DNA from: Bradyrhizobium sp. B124
GTDB taxonomy: Bacteria; Pseudomonadota; Alphaproteobacteria; Rhizobiales; Xanthobacteraceae
DNA: 64,000 nt
Reading direction: 5' to 3'
Assembly (NCBI RefSeq): GCF_038967635.1
Contig: NZ_CP152413.1
Location: 8,436,001-8,500,000, forward strand
Positions 20,992 through 51,740 of this stretch are shown piece by piece. The stretch's first letter is position 1. Each line of letters opens with the position of its first letter. The notes beneath the pieces were generated by a model that searched no databases, had not been told where the DNA came from, and was given only the letters and a program-made list of their open reading frames with translations. The translations under genes were made by a program, and so were the position numbers.

Positions 20992-22239
20992 TTACGGCAG
21001 CAGCGTTGCGTCGCCGTCGAACGGGCCGGCGTACCAGGCGCTCTCGTCTTCGAGGGCGCGAGCCAGGCCCTCGTCCGTCGTCTTGTAGACGAGCGGATCG
21101 GTCGGGTAAGTCCTGACGTAGGGATTCCATCTCATCAAGATCTGCCGGATATGTCCGGGCACGCCGACCAGCTCGAAGAGATGACCGCCCGAAGCGACCG
21201 CGTTCGCATAGGCCGCCTCGAGCAGCGCCTCGGTCACGTCTGTGTCATCCTGCTCAACCAGGATGTCGGCGAGCATCGACCGTCGCAAACCTGTCTGGCG
21301 GTCGACCGCATGCAGAACGACGGCATACCCCGCCAAGCGCTGGAATCGATGGCAGCAAAGCACGGCAACCGTCGAAGAGCTCCCAGGGAGCGTGAAGTGC
21401 CACCTGAGAGAGGCGGGACTTCGGTCGGCCAGCAACCGAGGGGCCTCGCCCAATTTGCGTCGCCACAGCGCTTCGAATTCGTCCCCGATGTCCTTCACAT
21501 CGATTTCCGTTACTTTGCTGGTCAGACGGCCCCGTGGCCCGCGGCGGAGCGAATCCAAACGCATGGCCGACGAGGCAAGGAAAGCTCCGACAGACTCCAT
21601 TCCGCTCCCGACGTCGAACTTCGCTGCGAGCACCCGCGCGAACTGACGGACATCCAGGATCCAGAACAAGATCTTGTCGTAGTCGGGGTCAGGCAACGAC
21701 CTGGCATGAAGGGCTTTTGATTGATTGACCACCGATGCTGTCGAGTGCGTGATGACAAGGAGATCGATATCTCGCTGCCGAAAGAACGAAGCCAGCAGGC
21801 CGATGCAGCGCGTGCGGTACGCCGGCTCGATCACGAGGCCAGCTGCTGTCGCGGCGAATATCGTTCGGCTTTCGAGCTGGTAGAGCACGGGAATGTTTCC
21901 CTGGTACCCGACAATTCCCTGCGCGGTCTCCAGCACCCACCCCATGCTGGGCCGCGATTTGGCGGCGGCCATCGCGGGATTTTTTCGCCAGAGCCGATCC
22001 CAGTTCTCCGGGCTGTCTTTCGCAAGTCCCCCGCGTTCCTTTAGCCTCGCGACGCTTTCGAAATCCGCGAACCGGACCTCCCGCTGCTTCGCCGGCGCCA
22101 ACGCGATTCCGGAGAGCGGCGCCGCTTCGGCTGGAGCGGACGCAGGACGGCGCCGGCGTTTCAGGAGTCGGAGCAGGATATCGGCGGCGTGATATTTGGA
22201 GCGTGCCTGATTTTGCGCCGGCGCACGGGTCCCCGCCAT
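20992..22239 (-). CDS. GNAT-like acyltransferase domain protein, last gene of carrier-protein operon
   Basis: A 415-residue protein, not confidently assigned to a named family. Two regions look like acyl-CoA N-acyltransferase folds: residues about 85-190 (GWVLETAQGIVGYQGNIPV, a strand-turn-strand of the GNAT core) and about 300-390 (RFQRLAGYAVVLHAVDRQTG, then ALLEAAYANAVASGG). A basic N-terminus (KRRRRP) precedes them. ATG 22239 has GGGAGGG just upstream and starts 10 bases after the carrier protein stop, so it is probably cotranscribed. In this context it might transfer an acyl or aminoacyl group from the carrier, but that is inference. Confidence 0.75.
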   Translation of the reverse strand: MAGTRAPAQNQARSKYHAADILLRLLKRRRRPASAPAEAAPLSGIALAPAKQREVRFADFESVARLKERGGLAKDSPENWDRLWRKNPAMAAAKSRPSMGWVLETAQGIVGYQGNIPVLYQLESRTIFAATAAGLVIEPAYRTRCIGLLASFFRQRDIDLLVITHSTASVVNQSKALHARSLPDPDYDKILFWILDVRQFARVLAAKFDVGSGMESVGAFLASSAMRLDSLRRGPRGRLTSKVTEIDVKDIGDEFEALWRRKLGEAPRLLADRSPASLRWHFTLPGSSSTVAVLCCHRFQRLAGYAVVLHAVDRQTGLRRSMLADILVEQDDTDVTEALLEAAYANAVASGGHLFELVGVPGHIRQILMRWNPYVRTYPTDPLVYKTTDEGLARALEDESAWYAGPFDGDATLLP

Positions 22240-22249
22240 CAATCCCTCC

Positions 22250-22567
22250 CTAGCCGAATGGCGGCGACGACCCGGTGGCGCCATTTCGCCACCGAGGCTG
22301 CGTCAATTGCTCGGACACGAACAGGCACAGGGGGCCGATCAGCGTCATCTGTTCTGGATCGAGGTTCTCGAAATCGATCTCCCCGTCGAAGTACTCGCCC
22401 GCCGCCATCATCATCTCGACGAAGGCGAGCGAGTCGAGCGCCCCCGACAGCAGCAGGTCGTAGTCGTCGGGGAGATCGCGTAAAGGACGTCGTCCGCGGT
22501 CCTCCAGCTTCCGGTTGAGGAAGGCTCCGAAGAACGCGCGGACGTCATCCGTGGTCGGACCGCTCAT
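22250..22567 (-). CDS. Acyl/peptidyl carrier protein
   Basis: A 105-residue carrier protein. The phosphopantetheine site is LLLSGALDSLAFVEMMMA, with Ser46 as the attachment residue. The acidic helix content (DLPDDYDLLL, DGEIDFENLDPEQM) and length fit ACP/PCP folds. The ATG overlaps the TGA of the adenylating enzyme gene (ATGA at 22567-22564), a strong sign of coupled synthesis and partnership. It should be activated by a phosphopantetheinyl transferase encoded elsewhere, since none is visible here. The C-terminal tail (about 85-105) is longer than the minimal domain. Confidence 0.85.
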   Translation of the reverse strand: MSGPTTDDVRAFFGAFLNRKLEDRGRRPLRDLPDDYDLLLSGALDSLAFVEMMMAAGEYFDGEIDFENLDPEQMTLIGPLCLFVSEQLTQPRWRNGATGSSPPFG

Positions 22568-24171
22568 TGGCTGTCTCCCAAAACCGCCGGCATGGCCTTG
22601 CGGTCGTATTTTCCGTTGACGTTGCGTGGCAACCGGTTGCGGACGTGCCATCGTCTCGGGACCATGTAGTCTGGCAGCCGGGCGGCGACCGCCGCGCGAA
22701 GCCGGTTGAGATCAACCGGCCCGCCTTCGATGAGCACTTCGATGCCGCCATAGCCGCTCGACGTGACGGGCCAGCCGATCGCCACGACGCCGTCGACGCC
22801 CGAGGCCTCGCGCACCACGGCTTCGACCTCGCCGAGCTCCACCCTGTGGCCGAGGATCTTCACCTGCGAGTCCATGCGGCCGAGATGGGTCAGGGGGCCA
22901 TCACCAGCGGGCCGGCGCACGCGGTCGCCGGTGCGGTAGAACATCTCCTGCCGTCCGGGCGGGACGACGAAGACTGCGGCGGTCTTCTCGGGATCCTTCC
23001 AGTAGCCGAGCGACATCTGCGGACCGCTCATCAGCAGTTCGCCGTCCGCGCCCGGCCCGACCTCGTTCAGATGCTCGTCGACGACGAGCACGTTCATTCC
23101 CGGGAATGGCGCGCCGATCGGCACGATGCCCATCTCCGCTTCGAGTGGCGCGCGCTTCGGATCCCACCGGTAGCCGGTGCACGCGATGGTCAGCTCCGTC
23201 GGCCCGTAGAGGTTCTCTACGACGCTGTTCGGCGCGGCCATCGCCCAGGCCGCGACGCTAGCCACGGGCAGCGGCTCGCCGCAGAACAGGCTCAGCCTGA
23301 CCGAGGGAAACCCTCCCGGCTTCAGCAGGCCGGACTGCTTCATCAGCGCGACCATCGAGGGCACGGAGAACCAGACCGTCAGCCCCTGGTCGCGGATGAA
23401 CCGCCCAGGATTGATCAGCGTCTTCTGCGAGGGGCAGCACACGCAGGCGCCGCGTTCCCACGCCACGAACATGTCGGATGCCGACAGGTCGAACGTCATG
23501 TCGAACGTCTGCGAGACAATGTCCAGCTCCGTGACGGCGAAGCGCTCCGCAGCATGGTCGACATAGGCTGCGACGTTGCGGTGCGCGACCATTACTCCCT
23601 TCGGCACGCCGGTGCTGCCGGAGGTGAACAGCAGATAGGCGATCGCGTCCTCGCGCGCGTCCGGCTCGCGCCAGTCGGCGCACTCTTCGAGATCGGCAGC
23701 TCCGACGATGATGTGCAAGGGCCATCGTTCGCGATAGGGGCGGGGATTCTCGAGACCGGGCGCGATCACGAGCAGCGGTTCGTTCACGCCCGCCATGAGC
23801 GCGTCCATTTGCGGCAAGGATTCCGCATCGACGATGATTGATCGGCACTCCGAGCGGACGAGCATCGACCTGGTCCGCTCGACCGGGAAGGTGCGGTTCA
23901 GCGGCACGTAGCCGTTTCCGGCCAGAAGCGATCCGAGCACGCCGGCGAACGCCGTCGCGCTGCGATGCGCGAATACGGCGGTGAGAGGCGTCGATGACCC
24001 TTCGCGATGCGCCTGGATGCAGGCTGCGATGCGGACGGCGACCTCGCGCAGCTGCCGATACGACAGCGACGTGCCCTGCGCGACGACGGCAGGACGGTCG
24101 GGAAACAGTTTCGCCGAGCGCAGGAAGCCCGTCCACAATCCCGGCCGTGATCCGTCCGCGCGCAACTCCAT
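22564..24171 (-). CDS. Stand-alone amino acid adenylating enzyme (DltA-like)
   Basis: A 535-residue ANL-superfamily enzyme that activates a carboxylic acid as acyl-AMP and loads it on the carrier protein. Core motifs are LLFTSGSTGVPKGVMV (A3, about 183), FDMTFDLSASDMF (A4), NLYGPTE (A5), YRTGDRV (A7), GRMDSQVKILGHRVELGE (A8) and NVNGKYDRK with the catalytic Lys (A10). The segments FDLSASDMF, VWFSVPS and LSLFCGEPLP match the pattern of D-alanine ligase DltA, including the Cys of LFCGE lining the DltA pocket. The aspartate of FDLS argues for an alpha-amino acid. No DltB or DltD is nearby, so lipoteichoic acid modification is excluded. The start ATG lacks a clear ribosome site. Confidence 0.88.
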   Translation of the reverse strand: MELRADGSRPGLWTGFLRSAKLFPDRPAVVAQGTSLSYRQLREVAVRIAACIQAHREGSSTPLTAVFAHRSATAFAGVLGSLLAGNGYVPLNRTFPVERTRSMLVRSECRSIIVDAESLPQMDALMAGVNEPLLVIAPGLENPRPYRERWPLHIIVGAADLEECADWREPDAREDAIAYLLFTSGSTGVPKGVMVAHRNVAAYVDHAAERFAVTELDIVSQTFDMTFDLSASDMFVAWERGACVCCPSQKTLINPGRFIRDQGLTVWFSVPSMVALMKQSGLLKPGGFPSVRLSLFCGEPLPVASVAAWAMAAPNSVVENLYGPTELTIACTGYRWDPKRAPLEAEMGIVPIGAPFPGMNVLVVDEHLNEVGPGADGELLMSGPQMSLGYWKDPEKTAAVFVVPPGRQEMFYRTGDRVRRPAGDGPLTHLGRMDSQVKILGHRVELGEVEAVVREASGVDGVVAIGWPVTSSGYGGIEVLIEGGPVDLNRLRAAVAARLPDYMVPRRWHVRNRLPRNVNGKYDRKAMPAVLGDSQ

Positions 24172-24187
24172 CGAACGATTGCCTAGC

Positions 24188-25258
24188 CTAGCCTGGGAGG
24201 CCCTGACGCGTCGGATCGCGAAGCGCTGACGACTTCAGACGCCGGGCCTTCGTCAGCGCCTGTCCGAAGACCTCGCCCGTATGGACCAGTTCCTCGCGGG
24301 TGGGTGGAATGTCCAGGATGAACGTCCCGTAGCCGGCCCCGGCGTAGCGCGCGAGTTCGTCGGAGACGACCCCGTAGTCGCCGACCAAATACGGGCAGAA
24401 GGTCTTGTAGTTTTCGAACGGCACCAGCCAATAGGGCGTGTCCTGGGCGGCCGTTTCGGCTGCGAGATCGGACATCTGCTTGTGCCACGCCGAATCCGAG
24501 ACCTTCATGGCCAGCTTGTGCGCCAGTTGCCCCTTCTTGTCGGTCGGGAAGCGTTCGTGCGCGACGCGCCAGGCCTCTTCGGCGTTCGCGCGGGCGATGA
24601 TGCCGACGCGCACGCCCGAGCCGACGCAGTCATCGTCGGCCTGCCCGTACTCTGCGGCCGGCTTGGGATACTTCACCGGCGTCGCGCCCAGGGCCTTGGC
24701 GGCCGCGAGCCCCGCTTCCGAGGAGCCCGACACGAATATGCCGGGCAGCAATTCCCGCGGCAGCGGTGGGGTCATCCGCAGATTGCGGACGGCATGGAAT
24801 TGCCCTTCGAGGGTCACCGGTTCGGCGTTCTCCAGTAGCAGCTTGATGATGCCGGTGTATTCGACGAGCCTCGCGTACCGCTTGTCGTGCGCCGTCGCAT
24901 CGCCGAGCGCTGCAAGCTCGGTCGTGTAGCCGCCCGCGACCATGTTCAGATAGAGCCGGCGTCCGTACATATGCGCGAACGAACTCACCATCTTGGCGAC
25001 GCTGTATGGGTGCATGTAGACCGGCTGCACCGCCACCAGCGGACAGAGCTCCCGGGTGCTCTGCAAGATGATTTGCGAGACGAGCCAGGGATCGACTAGG
25101 GAATTCTCCGTGTAGACCAGGATGCCCTTGCATCCCGCCTCTTCGCTCCAGCGGGCGACGGCCTGCACCCGTTCGACATAGTCGGCCGCCTGCACCGCGC
25201 CGGATTGCGGGCACGTGCTGAAGACGTCGAACCGAATGTCGGAAAACGTATCCATCAT
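24188..25258 (-). CDS. LLM-class flavin-dependent monooxygenase (SsuD-like)
   Basis: A 356-residue bacterial-luciferase-like protein with a TIM-barrel fold and a reduced-FMN-dependent mechanism. Typical segments are DYVERVQAVARWSEEAGCKG and FAHMYGRRLYLNMVAGGY; the flavin/phosphate site follows at LLPGIFVSGSSEAGLAAAKA (about 190). Related enzymes oxygenate sulfonates, alkanes or carrier-bound intermediates. Two ATGs (25258, 25255) follow GGAGGTGG. It is the first gene of a four-gene operon; the adenylating enzyme starts 16 bases after its stop. No flavin reductase is visible nearby. It is divergent from the carbamoyltransferase gene. Confidence 0.9.
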   Translation of the reverse strand: MMDTFSDIRFDVFSTCPQSGAVQAADYVERVQAVARWSEEAGCKGILVYTENSLVDPWLVSQIILQSTRELCPLVAVQPVYMHPYSVAKMVSSFAHMYGRRLYLNMVAGGYTTELAALGDATAHDKRYARLVEYTGIIKLLLENAEPVTLEGQFHAVRNLRMTPPLPRELLPGIFVSGSSEAGLAAAKALGATPVKYPKPAAEYGQADDDCVGSGVRVGIIARANAEEAWRVAHERFPTDKKGQLAHKLAMKVSDSAWHKQMSDLAAETAAQDTPYWLVPFENYKTFCPYLVGDYGVVSDELARYAGAGYGTFILDIPPTREELVHTGEVFGQALTKARRLKSSALRDPTRQGLPG

Positions 25259-25508
25259 CCACCTCCGTCCAAACGGCGTCGAAACGCCTTGGCTGGTGGA
25301 GAACGGGGGCATGGTAGCAGATGCGTTCGTGAGCTCCCCCGACGCAAAGGTGGTACTCCGTCAAGCGATGGGAACGGATGCCCGGTCGACTATTCGGGGG
25401 CGGCGCACTGCACTTTTGCGGACCTTGATTTCCGCGGCCTCTCTGCAACGATGCTGCGGCACCTGCTCGATTTTCCCTTGAGCGTGATCCGTCCAGGGGG
25501 TGTTGAAT

Positions 25509-27275
25509 ATGACGAAAGTCATCGGCATCAGTGGATTCGAGAGCTCGATCCCCTTCAAGCGGAAGCACTGGCCGGGCCTGGAGGAGCGCGAATATCGGAT
25601 CTCACAGGGCCACGATTCCGCCGCAGTGCTGGTGGTCGACGGCAGGATCGTCGCCGGTGCCGCCGAAGAGCGCTTCAACCGCAAGAAACACACCGGTGAT
25701 TTCCCGATCGGCGCTGTCAGCTACTGCCTGGAGACCGCTGGCCTGAAGCCGCCCGACATCGACGTGATCTCTCACGGCTTCGACTATGCGCCCTACAAGG
25801 CCGCGTTCATGCTGGATCCGACCTCCGCCCGGCAATACAGGGAGGTCTTCTCGCGCGAAAAACTGCTCTCGCAAGTGGATGAGCACCTGCCCGGATTTCC
25901 GGCCCGCAAGGTCCACCACGTCAACCATCATCTGTCCCACGCCGCCAGCGCCTACTACACCTCCGGCTGGAACGAATGCCTGGTGGTGATCCTCGACGGC
26001 ATGGGCGAGGTCCACGCCGTCACCGTCTATCACGCGCACGACAACGCGATCGACAAGCTCGCGGAAATCACCGCCCAGGATTCGATCGGCATCCTCTATT
26101 CCACGCTGACGCTGCATCTCGGCTTCGATTTCAACTCCGACGAATACAAGATCATGGGCCTCGCTCCCTACGGCGATCCCGCCCGCCACCGCGCTTTTTT
26201 CGAGCGGACCGTGGAGCTGCGCGACGACGGCCTGATCAGGATTCCGCTGCTCCGCCTCAATACCGAGCGCCATGATCGCGAAACCTACGGCGCGACGCGA
26301 CGTCATCTCGGTGAGTATCTGATCCCGGCACGCGCGCCCGACGGCGACGTCACCGACGACCATCGCGACGTCGCCGCAGCGCTGCAGGAATGCCTCGACA
26401 GCGTCATGCTCCACATCTGCGGTCATTTCGGCCGCAGCACCGGCCTGCGCAGGCTCGCGATGGCGGGCGGCGTCGCGCTCAACTGCACCGCCAACGGCCG
26501 CCTGCTGCAGTCCGGCCTGTTCGACGAGATCTACGTCCAGCCGGCCGCCGGCGACGATGGCTCCGCGCTCGGCGCGGCGCTCTGGTCGGCATCGCGCGAC
26601 GCTGGCGTGAAGAACGTCCGGATGCCGGTCCCCTTCCTCGGCCCCGCACCCACGCAAACCGAGATCTACAGGGCGCTGGCCGACACCGTCGGCCGCATCG
26701 AGGTTACGCGCTTTCCTGATCTCGACGAGACCTGCGCAGCGGCGGCCAGGCTGATCGCCGCCGGACGCGTGCTCGGCTGGTACCGCGGACGCATGGAGTT
26801 CGGCCCCCGCGCCCTCGGACACCGCAGCATCCTGGCCGATCCCGGTCATCCTGACATGCGTGACCGCATCAACGCGATGGTCAAGATGCGCGAAGCCTTC
26901 CGCCCGTTCGCGCCGGCGGTCAGCCTCGAGCAGGTGCATGACTGGTTCGAGGTGCCGAAGGGGCTCGAGCTTCCCTACATGATCATGACCGCCGACGTGC
27001 GTCCCGAGCACCGCGCCGCGCTGCCGGCGATCACGCATGTCAACGGCTCGGCCCGGGTGCAGACGGTTGGCGTCAGGGACAATCCGGAATTCCACGCGTT
27101 GCTGCGAGCGGTCGGCCGGGCGACCGGCCGCGAAATGGTGCTGAACACGAGCTTCAACGTGAAGGGGCAGCCGATCGTCAACACGCCGCGCGAGGCCATC
27201 GACACCTTCCTCGGCACCGGCATCGAGTATCTCTTCCTCGAGAACATGCTCGTCCGCCGCGCGGGACAGACGTAG
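25509..27275 (+). CDS. Carbamoyltransferase (NodU/CmcH family)
   Basis: A 588-residue two-domain O-carbamoyltransferase. The N-terminal Kae1/ASKHA-like domain (about 1-350) has SQGHDSAAVLVVDGRIVAGA and the metal-binding HHLSHAASAYYTSGW. It forms carbamoyl-adenylate from carbamoyl phosphate and ATP and transfers it. The C-terminal domain (about 375-585) has YRGRMEFGPRALGHRSI and the terminal NTSFNVKGQPIVNTPREA. Relatives decorate Nod factors, cephamycin, tobramycin and saxitoxin. I choose ATG 25509, with AGGGGG about nine bases upstream; GTG 25500 is the alternative. No nod box precedes it, and the divergent carrier-protein operon suggests a small metabolite as acceptor (inference). Confidence 0.93.
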   Translation: MTKVIGISGFESSIPFKRKHWPGLEEREYRISQGHDSAAVLVVDGRIVAGAAEERFNRKKHTGDFPIGAVSYCLETAGLKPPDIDVISHGFDYAPYKAAFMLDPTSARQYREVFSREKLLSQVDEHLPGFPARKVHHVNHHLSHAASAYYTSGWNECLVVILDGMGEVHAVTVYHAHDNAIDKLAEITAQDSIGILYSTLTLHLGFDFNSDEYKIMGLAPYGDPARHRAFFERTVELRDDGLIRIPLLRLNTERHDRETYGATRRHLGEYLIPARAPDGDVTDDHRDVAAALQECLDSVMLHICGHFGRSTGLRRLAMAGGVALNCTANGRLLQSGLFDEIYVQPAAGDDGSALGAALWSASRDAGVKNVRMPVPFLGPAPTQTEIYRALADTVGRIEVTRFPDLDETCAAAARLIAAGRVLGWYRGRMEFGPRALGHRSILADPGHPDMRDRINAMVKMREAFRPFAPAVSLEQVHDWFEVPKGLELPYMIMTADVRPEHRAALPAITHVNGSARVQTVGVRDNPEFHALLRAVGRATGREMVLNTSFNVKGQPIVNTPREAIDTFLGTGIEYLFLENMLVRRAGQT

Positions 27276-27324: not shown

Positions 27325-27651
27325 CTAGCGCCGGTGTCCGCCGTGATGTCCGCCGCCGTGATGTCCGCCGCCATGGTGGCCGCCGTGATGACGGTGCCCG
27401 TGATGATGATGACGGGGGTAGAAGTGCGGACGATGATGCCATCCGTGATGGCGCGGTCCGTAGCCGTAGCCCGGTTGCCAATAGCAGCGGCCCCAGCGAT
27501 CGCAGACCTGGCGCACCTTGTCGACATTGGACGTTTCGCCTGCGATGTGGCTGGCCTGCGGAAGCCCGTTCGGCATCGCCGATGCCGCACCGGACATCAA
27601 CGCTGCGCTTCCGAGCGCGGCCAGTCCAATAATTGCAAGCTTGATATTCAT
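27325..27651 (-). CDS. Small exported His/Gly-rich protein
   Basis: A 108-residue protein. A signal peptide (MNIKLAIIGLAALGSAALMS, cleaved near ASA-MP) leads to a short middle region with two cysteines (QVCDRWGRCYW). The C-terminal third is dominated by His and Gly (HHHHGHRHHGG and GGGHHGG repeats). Such tails can bind metal ions. AGGAG lies five to six bases before the ATG. It is monocistronic, and a near-consensus EcfG-like site lies about 30 bases upstream. No function is established; metal buffering in the periplasm is a guess. Confidence 0.8.
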   Translation of the reverse strand: MNIKLAIIGLAALGSAALMSGAASAMPNGLPQASHIAGETSNVDKVRQVCDRWGRCYWQPGYGYGPRHHGWHHRPHFYPRHHHHGHRHHGGHHGGGHHGGGHHGGHRR

Positions 27652-27677
27652 TGAGATCTCCTTGGTTGAAGCCTGAA

Positions 27678-47429: not shown

Positions 47430-50400
47430 ATGCGGGAGTGGGGCTGCGCGCGAATCCGTCTGCGAGGCTGGTTGATGGTCGCGATCATCCTTTCAACCGC
47501 TCTGCTCGCCGGGCCGGTTGTCGCACAAAACGGCGGCGTCGGCGGCGAGGGTAATTATCAGTCGACAGGACAACATGGCGGCGCCGGCGGCACTCCCGGT
47601 GTGAGCGGTGGTGTCGGCGGCGACGGCGGCGCTCCGAATCGCTCGTGCCAATGCACCGGTGGTGGTGGTGGCGGCGGCGCTGAAGGCGCCGCCGGAGGTG
47701 CCGGCGGCCCCGGCGGGATTAACGCCTCTCCCGGCGGCGGTGCCGGTGGCGTGGCCGGACAGGATGGCGTTGCTGGAACGATCGGTTCAGTTACCGCGAG
47801 TGGTGGTGGCGGTGGCGGCGGCGGTCTCAGCGGAACGTCCAGCGCGACGCTGAACAACACCGGGATATTGATGGGCGGCAATGGCGGCAGGGGCGGCGAC
47901 GGTGGCGTCAACGCCTCGAACCCTTCAGCCCAAGTCGCTGGCGGCGGCGGTGGTGGTGGTGCGGGCGGCAGTGCATTCACCATCACCGGCGCAGGAATCC
48001 ACTCAAACAGCGGCAGCATCACAGGCGGCAATGGCGGTGCGGGCGGCGCCGGTGATGTCGGTGGCGGCGGCGGTGACGGCGGCACCGGCATCGTCGTCAG
48101 TGCGCCAGGCGCAACGATCAGGAATTCCGGCTCGATCTCGGGTGGCGCGGGCGGTGGTGGCGGCGCGCAGGTGTCCGATATCGACGCGAATCAAGGCGAG
48201 CCGTCCACCGGCGGCACGCGGGGGAAGCCCGGTGCAGCAGGCACGGGCGGTTCCGGAATCGTCGGTAGCGGCTTGACCATCATCAACAGCGGGACGATCA
48301 CCGGCGGCGGCGGCCCGGGTGCGCAGGGCAACGCGATCGGCTTCACCGGCGGAACCAATACGCTGACGTCGATCGGTGGAATGCTCAGTGGCAATCTTGC
48401 GATTGCAAATGGCGTCGGTGCCAGCCTGACGTTCCTGCAAACCAGCGCGGCCGGCGCGTCGGGCGATGTCACCATCTCCGGCATCACGGGCCTCAATGGC
48501 TTGGCCACCGACGCCTCGGTTGCCGTCAAGCTGGATGGTGGGCGCTCGCTGATCGTCACCGGCGCCAGCACCTACACCGGCGGCACCTCGGTGAGCGACG
48601 GATCGACGCTCGTCATCCGCAACAGCAATGCACTCGGCAGCGGCACGCTGAAGATGGGCGAGACGCTTGCCGGTCTCACCAGGCTGGTGCTGGACGGCAA
48701 CGGCGTCAACATCGCCAACACCATCGTCATCAACAGCGATCCCATCATCACCGTCGCCGCCGGTACCACAAACGCGATGTCGGGGCCTATCAGCGGTGCC
48801 GGCGATATCGTGCTCAACGGGGGCGGCAGGCTGGTGCTGTCCGGAGCGAATACATATACCGGCGGCACCACGATCTGCGGCACTGCGTGCGGCGTTGCCG
48901 GCGGCAGCAGCGTGCTGCTAGTCGGCGTCGACACCGTGGGTACGCCGGGCGCGATCGTCTCGTCGGCGATCGGGACCGGCCTACTGACCTTCGACGGCGG
49001 GACGCTGCAGGCCGGCGGCAATTACACGATCGCGAACAACGCACAGGTCAACGCTACCGGCGGCAGCATCGACGGCAACGGATCCACCTTCACTTACTCG
49101 GGCAACATTGGCGGCGCCGGTGGACTGTCAGTGCTGGGCGCTTCGGCCTTCGTCGGCCGCGTGGTGTTGACAGGCTCCAACACCTATGCCGGCGGCACCA
49201 CGATCTGCAATTGCGCAACGCTGCAACTCGGCGACGCCAGCCACACCGCCTCGATCGTCGGCGAAGTCACTGTCAACGGCAGGTTCGAGATCGTCAACGC
49301 CAACACGGCGGGCATCACCAAGATCGTCAACGACGGCTTCAACGGGTTCGCCAGCACGACGTTCCACAATTCCACCACGGCGTCGACGGCCGTGATCGTC
49401 AACCGGAATTTCGGCGCCACGGTGTTTGGCGACAGCAGCACCGCGGGCAATTCCACCATTACCAATGGTGACAACACCAATGGTAACAACGTCGGCTCGA
49501 CGTATTTCCTCGGATTTTCGTCGGCGGCGTCGGCGAAGATGACGACGTCCGCCACCGGCTATATCAGTTTCTTCCAGAGCAGCACCGCGGCGAACGCGAC
49601 CATCGACAACAGCGGCTTGACCTATTTCGGCCCGATCGGCGACGCGACCGAGGCGCCGACCGCAGGCAACGCGACGATCACCAACCGGTCCGGCGGCGCG
49701 CTGGTCTTTGCCGCGTATGCGACGGCCGGAAACGCCGTGATCACGACCGAGAGCGGCGCGAGCGTCAAGTTCGTCGACAACGCGACCGGCGGTGCCGCGC
49801 AGTTCATCACCCAGGGAACCGGCTATGTCGACTTCGGCGGCAGCCTTGGGCCGAACGGTGATGGTCGCATCACGGCAGGTTCGATCGCGGGCTCGGGCAC
49901 CTACTACATCGGTAGCGGCAATACGCTCGCGGTCGGTGGCAACAATCTCTCGACAGTCGTCAGCGGCGTGATCGCGGATTCCAATCCCTGCGGTTGCGGC
50001 CCGGCCGGGCCTGGCAATCTGGAAAAGACCGGCAGCGGCACGCTGAATCTCTCGGGTGTCAACACCTATACCGGAGCTACCGTTGTCAATGGCGGCGTCC
50101 TGCAAGTCGATGGTTCGATCGTGTCGTCGAGTTCAGTCACGGTGAATTCAGGCGGCGCGCTCTCCGGTATCGGCACCGTCGGCAATACGACGATTGCGAG
50201 CGGTGGCATTTTGCTGCCAGGCAATGCGACACCGGGCACATTCCTCAACGTGGCGGGCAATCTCGCTTTCCAGTCTGGCGCGCTGTATCTGGTCGGGCTC
50301 AATGCGACCGCCGCCACATCAGCCAAGGTGACCGGCACCGCGGCGCTTGCCGGATCGGTGGGTGTAAGCATCGCTGCCGGCAGCACGATCGCCAGGCAAT

Positions 50401-51740
50401 ACACCATCCTGTCGGCGGCCGGCGGTCGCAACGGCGTGTTCGCCGGTGTCGCTTCAACCGGGCTGCCGTCGGGTCTGGTTGCAACGCTCGGCTACGACGC
50501 AAACAATGCCTATCTCAATTTCGCGCTCGATTACGCCGTGAAATCGAAGCTCAACGTCAACCAGATCAATGTTGCCGCGACGCTGCAGAACTTCTTTAAT
50601 GCCAATGGCGGCATCAACGTGGCTTATGCGGGACTCTCGCCGAACGGCCTGACCCAGGCCTCGGGCGAGAGCGCGACCGGCTCGCAGCAGGCGACGTTCA
50701 ACGCGATGAACCAGTTCCTCGGTCTGCTGACCGATCCGTTCGTCGCCGGGCGCGATGGCGGTTTTGGTGGCGGCGCGAGCGCTACGCCGTTTGCCGAGGA
50801 GAGCGCGTCGCTGGCGTATGCGGCGCGCACGACCGAGCCACGCGATGCGCTGGCCGCGATTTACTCCAAGGCACCGCCGCCGCAGCAGCCCGACTTCGAG
50901 CAGCGCTGGAGCATCTGGACAGCGGGCTATGGCGGTTCGCAGACCACCAGCGGCAATGCGGTGCTGGGCTCGAACAACACCAGCAGCAGCGTCTACGGCA
51001 CCGCAGTCGGCGCCGACTACCGTTTCTCGCCGAACACCATTGCAGGCTTTGCGCTCGCCGGCGGCGCCACCAGCTTCAGCACCAACGGTCTCGGCTGGGG
51101 CCGCTCCGACCTGTTCCAGGCCGGCGCGTTCGTTCGCCACACCGTCGGCGCGGCGTATCTGAGCGCCGGGCTCGCCTATGGTTGGCAGGACATCACCACC
51201 GACCGCATCGTCACCGCGGCGGGCGTCGACCATCTGCGGGCGAACTTCAACGCCAATGCGTGGTCGGGCCGGCTCGAAGGCGGCTATCGCGCCGCCACGC
51301 CCTGGATCGGGCTGACACCTTACGCGGCGGCGCAATTCACCAGCTTCGAGCTGCCAGGCTATGCGGAAAGCGTGGTTTCCGGTGGCGGTGCCTTCGCGCT
51401 GAACTATGCGGCGAAGAGCGTCACCGACACGCGCAGCGAGCTCGGCCTGCGCTCGGACAAATCCTTCGCGGTCGATGGCGGCATCGTGACGTTGCGCGGC
51501 CGCGTCGCCTGGGCGCACGACTTCAACCCGAACCGCAGCGCCGCGGCCGTGTTCCAGGCGCTGCCGGGGGCGGCCTTCGTGGTCAACGGTGCGGCGCAGG
51601 CCAGCGAGTCCGCGCTGGCCACCGCCTCGGCGGAGATCAAGTGGCGCAACGGCTGGTCGGCGGCTGCGACTTTCGAGGGTGAATTCTCCAACGTCACCCA
51701 GTCCTACGCCGGCAAGGGCGTTATGCGCTATACGTGGTGA
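47430..51740 (+). CDS. Autotransporter adhesin-like protein (type Va secretion)
   Basis: A 1436-residue outer-membrane autotransporter. An N-terminal signal with an extended basic region (cleaved near PVVAQ-NGG) is followed by a Gly-rich passenger start (about 35-300, GG repeats). Several autotransporter-associated beta-helix repeats follow (GANTYTGGTTI, GSNTYAGGTTI, GVNTYTGATVV). The C-terminal beta-barrel (about 1155-1436) begins WSIWTAGYGGSQTTSG and ends MRYTW with the terminal aromatic. The passenger carries four tight cysteine pairs: 73/75, 483/487, 593/595 and 854/856. No catalytic serine-protease motif is seen, so adhesion or biofilm is the likely role. It is monocistronic. Confidence 0.92.
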   Translation: MREWGCARIRLRGWLMVAIILSTALLAGPVVAQNGGVGGEGNYQSTGQHGGAGGTPGVSGGVGGDGGAPNRSCQCTGGGGGGGAEGAAGGAGGPGGINASPGGGAGGVAGQDGVAGTIGSVTASGGGGGGGGLSGTSSATLNNTGILMGGNGGRGGDGGVNASNPSAQVAGGGGGGGAGGSAFTITGAGIHSNSGSITGGNGGAGGAGDVGGGGGDGGTGIVVSAPGATIRNSGSISGGAGGGGGAQVSDIDANQGEPSTGGTRGKPGAAGTGGSGIVGSGLTIINSGTITGGGGPGAQGNAIGFTGGTNTLTSIGGMLSGNLAIANGVGASLTFLQTSAAGASGDVTISGITGLNGLATDASVAVKLDGGRSLIVTGASTYTGGTSVSDGSTLVIRNSNALGSGTLKMGETLAGLTRLVLDGNGVNIANTIVINSDPIITVAAGTTNAMSGPISGAGDIVLNGGGRLVLSGANTYTGGTTICGTACGVAGGSSVLLVGVDTVGTPGAIVSSAIGTGLLTFDGGTLQAGGNYTIANNAQVNATGGSIDGNGSTFTYSGNIGGAGGLSVLGASAFVGRVVLTGSNTYAGGTTICNCATLQLGDASHTASIVGEVTVNGRFEIVNANTAGITKIVNDGFNGFASTTFHNSTTASTAVIVNRNFGATVFGDSSTAGNSTITNGDNTNGNNVGSTYFLGFSSAASAKMTTSATGYISFFQSSTAANATIDNSGLTYFGPIGDATEAPTAGNATITNRSGGALVFAAYATAGNAVITTESGASVKFVDNATGGAAQFITQGTGYVDFGGSLGPNGDGRITAGSIAGSGTYYIGSGNTLAVGGNNLSTVVSGVIADSNPCGCGPAGPGNLEKTGSGTLNLSGVNTYTGATVVNGGVLQVDGSIVSSSSVTVNSGGALSGIGTVGNTTIASGGILLPGNATPGTFLNVAGNLAFQSGALYLVGLNATAATSAKVTGTAALAGSVGVSIAAGSTIARQYTILSAAGGRNGVFAGVASTGLPSGLVATLGYDANNAYLNFALDYAVKSKLNVNQINVAATLQNFFNANGGINVAYAGLSPNGLTQASGESATGSQQATFNAMNQFLGLLTDPFVAGRDGGFGGGASATPFAEESASLAYAARTTEPRDALAAIYSKAPPPQQPDFEQRWSIWTAGYGGSQTTSGNAVLGSNNTSSSVYGTAVGADYRFSPNTIAGFALAGGATSFSTNGLGWGRSDLFQAGAFVRHTVGAAYLSAGLAYGWQDITTDRIVTAAGVDHLRANFNANAWSGRLEGGYRAATPWIGLTPYAAAQFTSFELPGYAESVVSGGGAFALNYAAKSVTDTRSELGLRSDKSFAVDGGIVTLRGRVAWAHDFNPNRSAAAVFQALPGAAFVVNGAAQASESALATASAEIKWRNGWSAAATFEGEFSNVTQSYAGKGVMRYTW

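Follow-up and report, generated by a model that had tools for sequence, protein, structure and literature searches.

In the AlmEFG system (PMC12930378), a stand-alone glycyl ligase works with a separate carrier and a separate transferase, and the envelope acceptor is lipid A. In the necroxime assembly line, oxygenase, dehydratase and methyltransferase domains turn a glycine primer into an oxime (PMC7318616). Here we analyse a five-gene cassette of Bradyrhizobium sp. B124 that combines an adenylation ligase, a carrier protein, a luciferase-like monooxygenase (LLM), a GNAT-like protein and a carbamoyltransferase; it lies in a stretch of 64,000 nucleotides (contig NZ_CP152413.1, positions 8,436,001 to 8,500,000; hereafter the window) of a genome that measures 9.17 Mb on one contig. 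A further point of reference is DltABCD, which carries out the D-alanylation of teichoic acids. To our knowledge AlmEFG includes neither an LLM nor a carbamoyltransferase, and the fold of its transferase AlmG is other than GNAT. Genomes are labelled G plus a number and loci L plus a number, the window's genome being G000.

Reading of the sequence together with open reading frame calls confirmed the layout that the initial annotation had described: four minus-strand genes spaced by 16, -4 and 10 bases, with the carbamoyltransferase running divergently beyond a 250-base region. The features are as follows.

20992..22239, minus strand: putative tandem-GNAT-like acyltransferase, which closes the operon (predicted fold, orthologues)
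22250..22567, minus strand: stand-alone acyl or peptidyl carrier protein (weak AmcB match, D-S motif)
22564..24171, minus strand: stand-alone amino-acid adenylation ligase (PF00501, TIGR01733)
24188..25258, minus strand: LLM-class flavin monooxygenase, which opens the operon (PF00296)
25259..25508, no strand: shared divergent control region, conserved in 13 aligned loci including the window
25340..25365, no strand: 26-base block that may be a promoter or the site of a regulator (alignment of 13 intergenic regions)
25509..27275, plus strand: O-carbamoyltransferase of the CmcH/NodU superfamily (PF02543, PF16861)

We lean slightly towards a reading in which the cassette makes an oxidised small-aminoacyl donor on a carrier protein for the decoration of a surface polysaccharide, together with a carbamoylation. 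Its overall logic would be AlmEFG- or Dlt-like, and its gene set a variant of that logic. As in AlmEFG, a stand-alone ligase, a carrier and a transferase are encoded by separate genes, and the ligase would follow AlmE, which loads glycine onto a carrier for lipid A (PMC12930378). The likeness to necroxime, an oxygenase-modified, carrier-bound glycine, would be one of function; the necroxime assembly line is a multimodular polyketide synthase/nonribosomal peptide synthetase (NRPS). DltABCD shares with the cassette the ligase-carrier pair and a cysteine at position 301 of GrsA that we take to be a DltA trait, but the five genes include no MBOAT transferase (DltB) and the ligase falls below the DltA equivalog cut-off. 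Exosortase-A exopolysaccharide loci with TIGR03098 ligases resemble it through L047, where an LLM-ligase-carrier-GNAT set lies nearby, yet on TIGR03098 itself the window ligase reaches no more than 210.7 bits, against a cut-off of 592.35. No description of the five-gene set was recognised in open-licence full texts among the matches listed (subscription papers may hold one), which is compatible with the earlier statement that no described pathway has this set.

Joint inheritance of the five genes

Separate searches of one set of 265 genomes from the genus, for the ligase at E<=1e-100 and for the carbamoyltransferase at E<=1e-190, found the two in the same 14 genomes and neither in any of the 251 others (Fisher's exact p 1.5e-23, uncorrected for shared ancestry). 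The carriers include G066, in which the carbamoyltransferase lies 48 kb from the ligase, and G023, in which the two are on different contigs. Because the same 14 genomes hold both genes despite these arrangements, the five genes, judged by their distribution, behave as one unit, and the earlier suggestion of a single unit thus withstood a check for independent occurrence. In 12 of the 14 carriers the five genes stand together, flanked by an isocitrate/isopropylmalate-dehydrogenase-family gene and by an L,D-transpeptidase (ErfK/YkuD) or helix-turn-helix gene; the contig scan, which comprised 77 loci, added L034 as a further five-gene locus of that kind.

In the cassette-free genomes G002 and G014, the dehydrogenase gene lies ~136 and ~153 bases, respectively, from the counterpart of the sequence near window positions 27470-27665, which is followed by the ErfK-like gene. 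Since the site is empty in both, the cassette is, on this comparison, a block insertion. The distance from dehydrogenase to ErfK-like gene is 2.3 kb in G007, which also lacks the cassette, and the dehydrogenase gene of G015 fell outside the stretch examined. The G+C content is 65.3% in the cassette and 66.5 and 63.9% in the flanks. The cassette has an additional methyltransferase in four loci, L017 (12383-13357), L023, L027 (8061-9035) and L034, which represent genomes G004, G041 and G066 plus L034 itself; the GNAT in L017, L023 and L034 is a divergent version, ~60% identical. The ligase and carbamoyltransferase of G269 are each split over two frames and the carbamoyltransferase of G196 has one internal TGA, which may reflect decay or sequencing error. 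With carriers in 14 of 265 genomes, two empty-site relatives and sister versions that differ by one tailoring gene, the cassette offers a small test case that lends itself to deletion.

Within the control region, the 26-base block at 25340-25365 is a candidate operator or promoter. Eleven of the 13 intergenic regions share it unchanged, and those of L021 and L034 differ from it by a single mismatch. With as many as 6 mismatches allowed, it was not found in the stretches examined from G023 and G066, and the control region (25259..25508) gave no match to a sigma-70-like promoter.

Properties of the encoded proteins

The ligase exceeds the cut-off of TIGR01733, the NRPS-type amino acid adenylation domain (334.4 versus 317.4 bits), and matches PF00501; of the named relatives in the contig scan, that of Bradyrhizobium altum is the closest (97%). 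The nearest solved structures comprise linear gramicidin synthase A domains, together with 8k4r, 6akd, 8xjz and 4oxi (E 4e-80), the last of which we take to be AlmE. All 12 aligned ligases carry Asp 235 and Lys 517 (GrsA numbering), which presumably mark the use of an alpha-amino acid, as well as the cysteine at the GrsA-301 position. Read by eye and in what we take to be GrsA numbering, the pocket is D-L-S-F-L-C-L-I-A-K, with I-A at 330/331, and is filled by Phe 278, Leu 322 and Cys 301. Such a pocket favours a small amino acid and names none. Because it is filled, and because the nearest ligases include AlmE and the second LgrA domain, both presumably glycine users, our guess at the substrate would be glycine or alanine. 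An assignment as DltA was rejected on its equivalog, TIGR01734 (240.2 versus 559.85 bits).

The carrier protein has no Pfam match and resembles the cispentacin carrier AmcB only weakly (22.4 of 80 bits); the D-S motif for phosphopantetheine is present in 10 of 10 aligned carrier relatives. For the GNAT-like protein there was no sequence match in Pfam, NCBIfam or the PDB. A first structural model was poor (pLDDT, the predicted local distance difference test, 48.9), and a 12-row alignment that included four divergent sequences raised this to 58.7; the predicted fold, of low-to-middling confidence, suggests two GNAT-like units. We propose that the last gene of the operon encodes a tandem-GNAT-like acyltransferase that would move an acyl group from carrier to acceptor. 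Its orthologues occur in 14 other loci at 60-98% identity.

With 105.6 bits on PF00296 against a gathering score of 27.9, the first gene of the operon belongs to the LLM superfamily. Its nearest solved relative is the alkanesulfonate monooxygenase SsuD (E 2e-19; the alignment spans residues 30-331 of 355), but the residues that we take to form the SsuD sulfonate site, Cys54, His228, Arg297 and Tyr331, are not retained in the cassette enzyme. An identity as SsuD was rejected on the equivalog TIGR03565 (105.1 versus 518.2 bits). A loop, NYxTFCPYLVGxY, is retained in 10 of 10 aligned LLM relatives, five of them from the genus, and the cassette enzyme looks like a member of a distinct subfamily. 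Among 384 other genomes of the class, and 348 others of the phylum in a sample that overlaps the first, it was detected at E<=1e-70 in G611 only.

The carbamoyltransferase scores 192.4 bits on PF02543 (cut-off 24) and 225 bits on PF16861 (cut-off 27), which places it in the CmcH/NodU superfamily; decarbamoylnovobiocin carbamoyltransferase (9s2t, E 2.6e-119) and GdmN are its nearest solved relatives. NodU itself was rejected (NF041651, 146 versus 1000 bits). The labels 'DltA-like' and 'NodU-type' of the initial annotation are too narrow, since each enzyme falls below the respective equivalog cut-off. Other superfamily members in the window's genome are at most 43% identical to the cassette enzyme. 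Two of these further carbamoyltransferases, NodU-like and NolO-like by position, lie in L152 (G000:C1:8066000-8085900), whose NodD-, NodB-, NodC- and NodI/J-like genes, read by eye, we take to be a nod cluster.

Genomic setting of the relatives

In G066, a 57-kb stretch holds the LLM, GNAT, methyltransferase, carrier and ligase genes, with the carbamoyltransferase at its far end, among genes for Wzc-like, Wzy_C, flippase, Poly_export, glycosyltransferase, Gfo/Idh and DegT proteins, polysaccharide lyases and a UDP-GlcNAc epimerase fused to a sugar dehydrogenase. The homologous genes of G066 lie beside a Wzx/Wzy-type exopolysaccharide cluster. In G023, the ligase, carrier, GNAT and LLM genes, with a formyltransferase of the ArnA/Fmt kind, stand beside genes for a C39-ABC/HlyD exporter, an Acetyltransf_6 protein and an acetoacetate-CoA-ligase-like/carrier/GNAT fusion; tblastn with these G023 genes as query found all three in G066. 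The window's genome contains a related exopolysaccharide/exporter cluster at ~98-137 kb, 0.83 Mb from the window round the origin, that lacks the cassette. Its Acetyltransf_6, HlyD and C39-ABC genes match those of G023 at 84, 86 and 80%, and its Gfo/Idh, DegT, glycosyltransferase and deacetylase genes match those of G066 at 79, 82-85, 77 and 62%. This Acetyltransf_6 gene is present at E<=1e-120 in 13 of 14 carriers versus 12 of 251 other genomes (Fisher 1.8e-14).

The fusion protein (1074 residues; L026 8849-12073 and L027 13132-16350) joins an acetoacetate-CoA-ligase-family domain, a carrier domain and a GNAT, and is apparently a second self-contained acyl-donor module. All 14 carriers and also 2 of 4 non-carriers have matches of at least 36%, which are mostly to the ligase part and so uninformative. 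G066 also retains a formyltransferase gene remnant (L027 6548-6779) and a truncated second ligase copy (L027 6780-7400).

From the contig scan, 19 loci outside the genus were examined. An LLM adjoins the ligase in four of these, L038 (Acidobacteria), L041 and L047 (Deltaproteobacteria) and L046 (Methyloversatilis), and three have a carbamoyltransferase gene no more than 10 kb from the ligase, L041 (65%), L046 (37%) and L054 (45%). Ten were compared in detail (ligase identity at least 43%, plus L046 and L047 at 34%). Glycosyltransferase, flippase, Wzy or exosortase genes are near the ligase in six of the ten (L040, L041, L043, L044, L045 and L047), a count that includes L039 among the ten, its neighbours being outside the scan; L038 has, of glycan-type neighbours, a FemAB/Acetyltransf_6 gene only. 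Close to the LLM-ligase-carrier-GNAT set of L047 lie a Wzy_C gene and a ligase of TIGR03098 type that scores just under the cut-off (545.7 of 592.35 bits). The version in L038 resembles that of G023 in having a formyltransferase as its tailoring gene.

A carrier was called in seven of the ten, and in five of the seven the next gene encodes an acyltransferase or acyltransferase-like protein, which fits acyl transfer from the carrier. These are hexapeptide acyltransferases in L038 and L041, an MBOAT protein in L043, and in L046 and L047 GNAT-like proteins that score just under the PF13527 gathering threshold (23.6 of 25 bits). The gene after the carrier is of none of these types in L040, which has a hexapeptide protein 3 kb further on, or in L045. 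Profile comparison of the window GNAT with the L046 and L047 proteins gave a probability of 2.3, so homology between them is not shown by sequence.

Proposed pathway and alternatives

Since relatives of the module tend to sit in surface-polysaccharide or exosortase loci, we favour glycan decoration, and family knowledge suggests how it might proceed. The ligase would activate a small alpha-amino acid as its adenylate and load it onto the carrier; glycine and alanine are the likeliest candidates. The LLM, with reduced flavin and O2, would then oxidise the carrier-bound aminoacyl group, the substrate and product being read from operon position only. The predicted tandem GNAT would then pass the carrier-bound acyl group on to a sugar, at one of its amino or hydroxyl groups, the sugar being in a nucleotide sugar, a lipid-linked repeat or a polymer; operon position is again the only guide to the acceptor in the window's genome. 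The carbamoyltransferase would O-carbamoylate the same glycan or a hydroxyl arising from the oxidation. If this is true, the decoration of a bacterial surface sugar involves a flavin oxygenase whose substrate is a carrier-bound amino acid, and we met no such step in the literature searched. In nodulating bacteria, surface polysaccharides are important for plant recognition.

A more specific version, which we regard as quite unlikely, is that the LLM N-oxygenates glycyl- or alanyl-carrier to an N-hydroxy group or oxime. This would be O-carbamoylated here and modified by the methyltransferase (G004, G041, G066 and L034) or the formyltransferase (G023 and L038) in sister versions, after which the tandem GNAT would fix the group on an amino sugar. 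Were it true, the module, common to several phyla, would make an undescribed class of N-oxidised polysaccharide substituent.

Several observations weigh against polysaccharide decoration. Glycan-biosynthesis families are absent from the 18 other window genes scanned, and none of these encodes a flippase, polymerase, export protein or glycosyltransferase of a Wzx/Wzy cluster. At an identity of at least 82%, the Acetyltransf_6 gene is found in only 8 of 14 carriers and 9 of 251 others (Fisher 1.1e-7); this weaker link to the exopolysaccharide locus lowers our confidence. Five carriers have copies at 66-70% with no exporter, DegT or Gfo/Idh gene within the 20 kb examined, and G004, the one of the five whose genes were mainly scanned, has glycosyltransferase and Poly_export genes beside its copy. 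G266 has the cassette and no Acetyltransf_6 gene, and, of three non-carriers read, two (G151 and G070) combine the exporter genes with an Acetyltransf_6 gene. The DegT marker ties only 7 of 14 carriers to the G066-type cluster and is present in 19 of 251 others as well. Outside the genus, L046 has a P450 neighbour and no glycan gene was recognised at L054 (two neighbours scanned). Finally, a more distant LLM (49%; L108 in G611) sits in an NRPS-like cluster with three AMP-forming ligases, a P450, an acyl-CoA dehydrogenase and an Sfp-type activating enzyme.

This last cluster would suit a different product, namely a signal, toxin or metallophore in the form of a small, diffusible amino acid derivative that has been oxidised and carbamoylated and then set free by hydrolysis or by the GNAT. 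So would the lack of glycan genes in the window, where the flanks are common to 11 other carriers of the same arrangement and to L034. Stand-alone ligases similar to that of the cassette include 8k4r and 6akd, presumably enzymes of small-molecule pathways, and the carbamoyltransferases nearest in the PDB are antibiotic tailoring enzymes. However, Pfam identified no exporter or thioesterase among the five genes, the relatives sit in polysaccharide clusters, and the position of the GNAT as final gene suggests transfer to an acceptor. We consider a diffusible product unlikely, if far from negligible; the small signal or toxin initially suggested has lost ground to glycan decoration, which the surface-polysaccharide and exosortase loci of the relatives make the likelier.

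The same donor chemistry might instead serve an envelope lipid, a hopanoid, a Nod factor or a protein, which we judge improbable. Dlt acts on teichoic acid, and the window's genome has the putative nod cluster with its two other carbamoyltransferases; AlmEFG acts on lipid A (PMC12930378). Nod factors, however, would already be served by those NodU-like and NolO-like enzymes, and the neighbours in G066 are polysaccharide assembly and export genes. That the operon and the carbamoyltransferase are unrelated neighbours on a mobile segment is very improbable: the insertion is clear, with its site empty in G002 and G014, but the co-occurrence in 14 of 14 carriers, even 48 kb apart in G066, speaks against coincidence as the sole reading, and the two genes also lie within 10 kb of each other in three outside-genus loci (L041, L046 and L054).

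The window contains no tRNA. Elsewhere in it, positions 47430-51740 encode an autotransporter of 1436 residues with passenger repeats (PF03797, PF12951).

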